From a bacterium (GTDB taxonomy: Bacteria > Armatimonadota > Fimbriimonadia > Fimbriimonadales > Fimbriimonadaceae), in the NCBI GenBank assembly GCA_013823945.1, contig PNMZ01000007.1, positions 1-64,000 on the forward strand: a stretch of 64,000 nucleotides of DNA. The letters run 5' to 3'. The notes under the pieces are model-generated. The model was given only the letters and a program-made list of their open reading frames with translations. It searched no databases and had not been told where the DNA came from. Numbering within the stretch: position 1 is the stretch's first letter; each line of letters begins with the position of its first letter. This document shows, piece after piece, positions 31,288 to 34,101 of this stretch. A program made the translations under genes and the position numbers.

Positions 31288-31345
31288 TGAGGATGTGATT
31301 CCTCGCATTGTTGCGGGGAGTTGCGTTGAGCTAGGCCAAAGCATC

Positions 31346-32194
31346 ATGTTCGCATTCGTTGGAATCATCGTTGGAATCGTCTGTACGTTGTTGGGGTATG
31401 TGCTCCACCACGGGAAGATTGCGGTTCTGATCCAGCCCACTGAATTCATCATCATTTTCGGTGCGGCGCTGGGGATTTTCATTGGTTCGTTTGGAATGAA
31501 GACGTTCACGGCGACGATAAAAGCGGTCATTGGCTTGTTGAAGGCTCCGCCGACAAAGGAGCATTACGTTGAATTGCTCAAGATGATGTACGAATTATTT
31601 AACGTTGCGCGGAAAGAAGGGCTGCTTGGTTTGGAACAACATGTGGAAAAGCCCGATGAGAGTGCGATTATTTCAAAATATCCGAGCTTTTTGGGGAATC
31701 ACCACGCGGTGCATTTTATGTGCGATACGTTGAAGGTGATTTTGACCGGGGCGGTGGGGCCGCATGATTTGAGCGAAATGATGGAAATGGATTTGGAGAT
31801 TTCCCACGAAGAGGAGCATCGTCCGGCGGAGGCGCTGCAGACGGTTGGTGATGCAATGCCGGCGGTTGGGATTGTTGCGGCCGTTTTGGGGGTTATTATC
31901 ACGATGGGCAAGATCAACGAAGGGCCAGAGAAGATTGGAGCTTCGGTTGCGGCGGCCTTGGTGGGTACGTTCCTTGGGATTTTTGTCGGATACGTTGTTT
32001 GTGCGCCTTTGAGCAAGTCGATCTTGAACAAGATCGGGGCGGAGGGGATGTACATGAACTGCATTCGTCATGCTCTGTTTAGCTTTGCGCGGGGCGAATC
32101 ACCCATTACTTGCGTTGAGTTTGCGCGACGACAGATCGAGCCGGGCTTGCGCCCGGGATTTGTGGAGCTTGAAGAAGCGGTGAAGGCGGCTTAA
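31346..32194 (+). CDS. motA: flagellar motor stator protein MotA
   Basis: 282-residue inner-membrane protein forming, with MotB, the proton-conducting stator that drives flagellar rotation. The start MFAFVGIIVGIVCTLLGYVL is the first of four membrane helices; a frame extension to 31295 is not conserved. The cytoplasmic loop contains HRPAEALQTVGDAMPAVGIV, the charged and proline-containing torque-generating and channel region, and the last two helices contain AAVLGVIITM and GTFLGIFVGYVV. motB follows after 13 bases. A sigma-28-like promoter lies upstream. No other flagellar structural genes are within the window. Confidence 0.95.
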   Translation: MFAFVGIIVGIVCTLLGYVLHHGKIAVLIQPTEFIIIFGAALGIFIGSFGMKTFTATIKAVIGLLKAPPTKEHYVELLKMMYELFNVARKEGLLGLEQHVEKPDESAIISKYPSFLGNHHAVHFMCDTLKVILTGAVGPHDLSEMMEMDLEISHEEEHRPAEALQTVGDAMPAVGIVAAVLGVIITMGKINEGPEKIGASVAAALVGTFLGIFVGYVVCAPLSKSILNKIGAEGMYMNCIRHALFSFARGESPITCVEFARRQIEPGLRPGFVELEEAVKAA

Positions 32195-32207
32195 CGGAGA
32201 AAGGGCG

Positions 32208-33152
32208 ATGCAAGAAGGCACCCCGATTATTATCAAGAAGGTTAAGAAAGGCGGCCATGGTCACCATGGCGGGGCCTGGAAGGTTGCCTATGCTGACTTT
32301 GTTACGGCTATGATGGCGTTTTTTATGGTCATGTGGATTTTGGGGATGTCTCAGCCGGAAAAGGAAGCAATCGCGGCCTATTTTAGTGATCCAAGCGGCG
32401 TGACGAAGCAGGTGCCGATGTACCAGATTAGTCTGGGGCCGATGGACAAGATGATGGGTGAGAACAGTGGATCTGCAGATAGCCGGGACGAGGGAATTAT
32501 GCGCGACAAGGCCGAAATGGATAAGACCCAGGCCGAGCTGAACGAAGCTATTGAGGAAGACCCGGATTTGAAAGCTTTGGCGGCGAAGGGGGATTTGGAA
32601 GTGAGTCAGACATCTGAGGGGTTGGTGTTGGAGTTGATTGAGAATGAAGCGGGGGGCGAAGTGTTTTTTACAGTTGGAAGTTCAGGGGTGCGCGACCAGG
32701 CAAAAAAGGTGTTTGAAAAGTTGGCTCCGGTCCTGGCGGCAACGGGTCGTTTGATTAAAGTGGATGGACATACAGATGCGCGACCTTTTCCGGGGAGTGG
32801 TTATGACAATTTTGATTTGAGTGCCGAGCGGGCGAATGCGGTACGTCGGTTATTTTTGACGTATGGGGTCAAGAAGAGTCAGATCATTGGGGTTGAAGGG
32901 AAAGCGGATACCGACTTACGGAAGCCGGAGGATCCCTATCACTTTAGTAATCGGCGGGTGACGGTTCTGTTGCCGTACCGATTTATGCGGACGGCGACGC
33001 AGAAGATGCCTACCGACATTGCGGATGAGTCGGTTGAGGGCGTTTTCGTGAAACCGAAAGGACTCTCGCCGGTGGATGCGGTTGACCGGGCTTTTGGTGA
33101 GGCGGAGGCGAAGAAAAAGGCGGGAGAGAATGGTCATGATGGGGGCCATTAG
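32208..33152 (+). CDS. motB: flagellar motor stator protein MotB
   Basis: 314 residues. A basic, His-rich N-terminus (IIIKKVKKGGHGHHGG) leads into one membrane helix with the essential proton-binding Asp30 (AYADFVTAMMAFFMVMWI). A periplasmic linker/plug (about 55-150) precedes the OmpA-type peptidoglycan-binding domain (about 150-265; VDGHTDARPF, FDLSAERANAVRRLF, FSNRRVTVLL). The C-terminal 50 residues are a charged extension. GGAGA lies eight bases before the start. Together with MotA it anchors the stator to the cell wall. Confidence 0.96.
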   Translation: MQEGTPIIIKKVKKGGHGHHGGAWKVAYADFVTAMMAFFMVMWILGMSQPEKEAIAAYFSDPSGVTKQVPMYQISLGPMDKMMGENSGSADSRDEGIMRDKAEMDKTQAELNEAIEEDPDLKALAAKGDLEVSQTSEGLVLELIENEAGGEVFFTVGSSGVRDQAKKVFEKLAPVLAATGRLIKVDGHTDARPFPGSGYDNFDLSAERANAVRRLFLTYGVKKSQIIGVEGKADTDLRKPEDPYHFSNRRVTVLLPYRFMRTATQKMPTDIADESVEGVFVKPKGLSPVDAVDRAFGEAEAKKKAGENGHDGGH

Positions 33153-33609: not shown

Positions 33610-33870
33610 TTATTCGGTGATGCGGTCGGCGATTCCTCGTCGGATCATGGCATCGGTGATGTCGGCTCCGGTGGGGTTGTATTCGCCCGCTTCAATTTTG
33701 GCTTTGAGTGCGGCGACCATTTCGTCTCGGTCGGGCATCTCATTGACTTTGGCGGTGATCTCTTCGATGAGATCTGCGTCGGTGAGTCGGATCACGGCGG
33801 CGTCCACTTTTTCTTTGGCGACGGGTGTTCCTTTCTTAATTTCTTCGATTTGTTGGGTTGATATTTTCAC
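33610..33870 (-). CDS. flgM: FlgM-like anti-sigma-28 factor
   Basis: 86 residues, unstructured-looking N-terminal half and two short helices ending in LKAKIEAGEYNPTGADITDA and RRGIADRI, the typical FlgM C-terminal pattern (VxxLKxxIxxGxYxxxxxxIA). FlgM holds the flagellar sigma factor inactive until the hook is complete. The start is a GTG preceded by GAGAGG. The leader carries a c-di-GMP-I type riboswitch. Its closeness to motAB, which bears a sigma-28-like promoter, supports the assignment. Confidence 0.82.
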   Translation of the reverse strand: MKISTQQIEEIKKGTPVAKEKVDAAVIRLTDADLIEEITAKVNEMPDRDEMVAALKAKIEAGEYNPTGADITDAMIRRGIADRITE

Positions 33871-33894
33871 GCTTTTGACCTCTCTGTTGAAACT

Positions 33895-33984
33895 GATTTC
33901 GATTTGGTAACCCGGCGGTCTCCTGGGAGATCCGTGGCTTTGCGTGATCTGGTTCGCACCAGTCGTGCCGTTTCACTCGAAGTC
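33895..33984 (-). promoter_or_regulatory. cyclic-di-GMP-I (GEMM-I) riboswitch in the flgM leader
   Basis: On the minus strand the conserved core reads GGCACGA, P2 hairpin CTGGT-GCGA-ACCAG with a GNRA tetraloop, then ACGCAAAGCCACGG, P3 hairpin TCTC-CCAG-GAGA, and CCGGGTTACC. These are the fixed elements of the GEMM-I aptamer (GNRA-capped P2, ACGCAAAGCC, GGGTTACC). P1 can form from GACTTCGAGT with the ATCGAAATC after the aptamer. The aptamer ends about 25 bases before the flgM GTG; no terminator hairpin is seen between, so control of translation is more likely. The ligand is inferred from the class. Confidence 0.82.
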
Positions 33985-34101
33985 TTTGCGTCCTGGTAAT
34001 GATTACGGGATGAAAACCGGAGAACTTTAGGGGCGGGGACGAGTTTTTTGAAAAAAAGTTGAGCGGGGGGCCTGGTGTAGAATGAGTGGAGAGAAACGAC
34101 G

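Follow-up and report, generated by a model that had tools for sequence, protein, structure and literature searches.

A predicted c-di-GMP-I riboswitch in the leader of the anti-sigma factor gene flgM in Armatimonadota

The flgM gene, its leader and its promoter

The window, by which we mean the whole 64,000-nucleotide stretch of a Fimbriimonadaceae contig (Armatimonadota) that was analysed, encodes an anti-sigma-28 factor, FlgM, of 86 amino acids with a GTG start codon (33610..33870, minus strand). The protein matches the FlgM profile PF04316 with 35.7 bits (1e-8) against a curated cut-off of 25, and the alignments include the conserved C-terminal region. We found no other FlgM in a scan of the genome. 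The product is predicted to inhibit sigma-28, whose gene is present in the genome (TIGR02479, 236.7 bits, over the cut-off), as are flagellin genes, and motA and motB adjoin flgM in the window (31295-33152). Named relatives of this FlgM come nearly all from Armatimonadota, mostly from Fimbriimonadaceae and Fimbriimonadales, and the nearest belongs to Armatimonadetes bacterium Uphvl-Ar1 (CP021423.1), with 98% identity.

The flgM leader contains a c-di-GMP-I aptamer. A cmscan search of the whole window with Rfam 15 gave a match to RF01051 (c-di-GMP-I, GEMM-I) at 33903..33979 on the minus strand, with 40.7 bits against a gathering threshold of 35 (E 1.6e-4), a margin of 5.7 bits that is modest if taken alone. 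In a scan of the whole genome (3.16 Mb), this copy is the sole RF01051 match (E 1.9e-6). The variant RF03168 (c-di-GMP-I-UAU) reached 39.7 bits in a local scan, against a gathering threshold of 65.9, and is not claimed. The aptamer core, which is kept upstream of flgM in 137 leaders, consists of a P2 helix with a GCGA tetraloop, a shortened P3 (UCUC CCAG GAGA) without the usual longer receptor arm, and the ACGCAAAGCC and GGGUUACC junctions. An alignment to RF01051 and a tally over the 137 leaders show that the window has the conserved binding core, namely the GG before GCA (G20 of Vc2), ACGCAAAGCC and the CC at the 3' end. Two other aptamers (L039, at 1986-2061, and L203) have UC in place of this CC (GGUUAUC and GGUUGUC), a change that involves the expected contact site for the second guanine of the ligand.

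The core is flanked by the two strands of a P1 helix, GACUUCGA (5' strand, 33977..33984, minus strand) and UCGAAAUC (3' strand, 33895..33902, minus strand), which form seven of eight pairs with a single C.A mismatch. The P1 helix ends 24 nt before the GTG. An earlier note, made from the letters alone, had read this leader as that of flgM and as holding a full GEMM-I core with a GNRA-capped P2, both junctions and a possible P1, ending about 25 bases ahead of the start codon. All of these parts were recovered, the covariance model that the note had named as the check scores above its gathering threshold, and the span that it marked, 33895-33984, is exactly the aptamer together with both P1 strands. 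Directly upstream of P1, GGACGCAAA (33985-33993, minus strand) duplicates the core motif ACGCAAA; this duplication is not found in all relatives and perhaps arose by chance.

Farther upstream lies a candidate sigma-28-like promoter, TAAAGTTC-N11-TCCCGTAA (34003..34029, minus strand), the -10 element of which ends about 23 nt before the aptamer. Its motif-scan score of 16 compares with a mean of 13.1 for dinucleotide shuffles of the same locus and equals the pooled 95th percentile of 16, so that the match is marginal by score alone and is supported by its position. Sigma-28-like promoters are found upstream of many of the aptamers and are clearest in family f2 (TAAAGAAA-N12-GCCGATAA). The score reaches the 99th percentile of the shuffles at 19 of 50 loci, and the -10 end lies a median of 23.5 nt from the aptamer.

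Conservation of the aptamer–flgM pairing

We found RF01051 matches in 50 of 61 genomes (the window's own and 60 relatives), one per genome. The DNA of all 50 was inspected, and a FlgM-like open reading frame lies downstream of the aptamer in every one of them (50/50). Across the class, 90 of 113 genomes contain a total of 94 matches, and 91 of the 94 are directly upstream of flgM; a chance match to RF01051 was rejected for this reason. The three others (L051, L052 and L053) are upstream of other, unclassified open reading frames. Elsewhere in the phylum, 46 aptamer–flgM pairs were confirmed with the FlgM profile; these cases were chosen from phylum tables for FlgM adjacency and therefore show breadth, not rate. 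The leader is thus kept far beyond close relatives, which was the second point on which the earlier note had staked its reading. A leader with an aptamer and an Armatimonadota-type flgM is also found in an entry titled Methanoregulaceae archaeon (L118, JADZEW010000031.1), which is likely a misnamed bin.

The pairing is not universal. Six genomes with flgM and no RF01051 match were inspected, and four of them (G013, G027, G031 and G040) do carry an aptamer that the strict filter had not picked up. In two genera of the window's family, flgM stands without an aptamer (L133 in G010; L137 in G036, a genome of 1.5 Mb), and the aptamer seems to have been lost there.

Many further RF01051 matches outside the class lie upstream of genes other than flgM. 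Some of these c-di-GMP-I aptamers, often several per genome, are located before terminator-like hairpins and non-flgM genes (L240, L241, L068, L069 and others). Platforms of both kinds, transcriptional and translational, are thus probably in use in the phylum.

Shine-Dalgarno pairing and the proposed switch

We investigated pairing in the leaders with a partner-swap permutation, which sets how strongly two strands of one leader pair against the pairing energy of strands exchanged between leaders. The two P1 strands covary: over 123 non-redundant leaders, a strand pairs with its own partner at -10.57 kcal/mol and with swapped partners at -7.65 kcal/mol (p 0.0002). The Shine-Dalgarno sequence also has a preferred partner. 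In the 23 leaders that share the window's type, it pairs with the P1 5' strand at -12.32 versus -9.48 kcal/mol for swapped strands (p 0.0002), and with the P1 3' strand no better than swapped (p 0.16). In family f2, in family f5 and outside the class, it is the P1 3' strand that matches the Shine-Dalgarno sequence (p 0.0008, 0.03 and 0.004, respectively), and no match to the 5' strand was found in the same test. The predicted masking strand is lineage-dependent: the window's genus and its neighbours would use the 5' strand, other families and classes the 3' strand. In none of these groups did pairing of the Shine-Dalgarno sequence with the aptamer core (P3) or with far-upstream sequence gain over swapped partners, and control regions were not significant; the aptamer core (P3) was rejected as a masking site because it pairs no better than swapped partners do. 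In type B, a set of 38 non-redundant leaders from the window's family, the test found no Shine-Dalgarno-masking partner, and therefore one mechanism does not fit all leaders. Wherever the P1 helix and the Shine-Dalgarno helix are both strong, they have at least 3 nt in common (20/20, 14/14, 5/5 and 32/32), in counts that rest on short windows and so favour overlap.

The predicted fold of the window's leader has the same arrangement. In the minimum free energy fold, the Shine-Dalgarno sequence GAGGUC (33877..33882, minus strand) is paired with GACUUC (33979-33984), the half of the P1 5' strand that doubles as an anti-Shine-Dalgarno sequence. The upstream ACGC (33988..33991, minus strand) is predicted to pair with GCGU (33869-33872) and so to cover the start codon's first two bases. 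This masked fold has an energy of -38.4 kcal/mol (z -2.0), and nearest-neighbour energies put the open state at a disadvantage of 7.3 kcal/mol. Thus, ligand binding, tertiary contacts or the order of co-transcriptional folding must pay for the difference.

We propose that a c-di-GMP-I riboswitch in the leader of the flgM mRNA works as a translational ON switch, a reading to which we give a probability of roughly 0.7. In the ligand-free state, GAGGUC and the start codon would be covered by ACGC and GACUUC at the 5' end of the transcript, little FlgM would be made, sigma-28 would be free and the late flagellar genes would be on. Binding of c-di-GMP would stabilise the aptamer and P1 (GACUUCGA with UCGAAAUC) and consume the GACUUC strand. 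The Shine-Dalgarno sequence would then be freed, FlgM would be made and sigma-28 would be kept inactive. The direction follows from the pairing: P1 and Shine-Dalgarno masking are mutually exclusive, and a ligand-stabilised P1 should therefore unmask the Shine-Dalgarno sequence. The same exclusivity backs the translational control that the earlier note had suggested. Beyond that note, the sequences point to a likely ON direction, a sigma-28-type promoter, a phylum-wide spread and two alternative masking designs.

High c-di-GMP does not usually go with raised motility gene expression. A genuine c-di-GMP-I riboswitch of the opposite sense, in which the ligand lowers FlgM and sigma-28 activity goes up at high c-di-GMP, would run against this relation, and we consider it unlikely, since the Shine-Dalgarno sequence in the window's type, in f2, in f5 and outside the class pairs with a P1 strand that ligand should occupy. 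Precedent speaks for an OFF switch: Vc2, the best known member acting on translation, is one and masks a distant ribosome-binding site (PMC9262584), and the class I switches of C. difficile are OFF (PMC6200980). The type B leaders, with no masking partner found, are also compatible with it.

Less probable still is an aptamer that binds c-di-GMP and has its main effect on termination of transcription or on the stability of the mRNA, with Shine-Dalgarno pairing as a secondary feature. Class I relatives acting by termination are known (Cd1, pilM), and several non-flgM aptamers in the phylum, L240 for example, have a terminator-like hairpin immediately after them. However, the leader from aptamer to start is just 24-32 nt long and contains the Shine-Dalgarno covariation. 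The stretch from the aptamer to the GTG in the window has no terminator-like hairpin, and a terminator-type platform was rejected because a hairpin with a T run is absent between aptamer and start.

The identity of the ligand can be predicted from one base. G20 of Vc2 selects among dinucleotides (PMC9262584), favouring c-di-GMP over cGAMP, and the window has G at the equivalent position, as do 134 of 137 leaders. Together with the 11 GGDEF domains encoded in the genome, this makes c-di-GMP the expected ligand of the flgM leader. Recognition of 3',3'-cGAMP, which GEMM-Ib members sense (PMC8835794), or of another dinucleotide is very improbable in the face of this G and these domains, and a cGAMP aptamer was rejected for the window, which has G where cGAMP-selective GEMM-Ib members have A, although three relatives do carry A there. 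These three flgM aptamers (L055 and L056, at 1501-1575, and L175) have the change linked to cGAMP recognition; L054, a relative in the same genus, has G at that position and matches RF03167.

If the proposed ON switch is transcribed from the sigma-28-type promoter, both c-di-GMP and negative feedback by sigma-28 would govern FlgM. We lean slightly towards the view that this is an ancestral, phylum-wide circuit of Armatimonadota: an ON riboswitch on an anti-sigma mRNA that is itself transcribed by sigma-28, in which the masking strand would have changed sides on P1 in the course of evolution while the logic was kept.

Relation to known c-di-GMP and FlgM regulation

The aptamer class is known, its target appears to be new and the pairing is conserved phylum-wide. 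In the open-access literature, we found no description of a c-di-GMP riboswitch wired to flgM, or of riboswitches in Armatimonadetes with such wiring. Vc2 of Vibrio cholerae is reported to be a P1-dependent translational OFF switch of the same aptamer class (PMC9262584), and in both cases competition with P1 would govern translation. The flgM leader differs in that the partner of its Shine-Dalgarno sequence is a P1 strand, predicting an ON switch, and in that its target is an anti-sigma factor. In Clostridioides difficile, the c-di-GMP-I riboswitch Cdi-1-3 (Cd1) also controls flagellar expression and the flagellar sigma factor (SigD). It turns off the flgB operon, the 23 kb early flagellar operon, by transcription termination (PMC6200980), lowering the whole operon, whereas the flgM leader targets a single anti-sigma gene, whose expression is predicted to rise. 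Related logic is known from Streptomyces and Rubrobacter, in which the c-di-GMP-binding anti-sigma protein RsiG acts on the FliA-family sigma factor WhiG (PMC8325347). There too, c-di-GMP acts on a FliA-family sigma factor through an anti-sigma factor, and high c-di-GMP silences the sigma factor. In that system the protein RsiG itself binds c-di-GMP, whereas in the flgM case the sensor would be an RNA on the anti-sigma mRNA and FlgM stands in the place of RsiG. Synthesis of FlgM is also controlled post-transcriptionally in Escherichia coli, where the small RNAs OmrA and OmrB act on flgM (PMC7549644); these act in trans, with no small-molecule sensor in the leader.

If the proposed switch is correct, it would be a direct and protein-free link by which c-di-GMP reaches the flagellar sigma factor, and one that has survived the deep splits within a phylum in which regulation has hardly been studied. 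It would also be a simple test case of a riboswitch that rewires its expression platform with its logic unchanged. As the leader holds the sole c-di-GMP-I switch in the window's genome, its single target would tell the use of the sensor in that cell.

We also found a gene that fuses a sigma factor (regions 2, 3 and 4) to a C-terminal GGDEF domain (L160:4861-6141, plus strand; in the window's own genome, G000:C1:873360-874637), which suggests a second link between c-di-GMP and a sigma factor. The signature motif of its GGDEF domain looks degenerate (GSTGF). The gene lies beside a pilC-like gene, about 9 kb from the sigma-28 gene, and 40 of 41 genomes from the order carry a near full-length fusion. 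The fusion is broken into two pieces, with a stop, in the nearest relative genome (G006:C1:2834290-2835566), perhaps through an assembly error or as a decaying gene.
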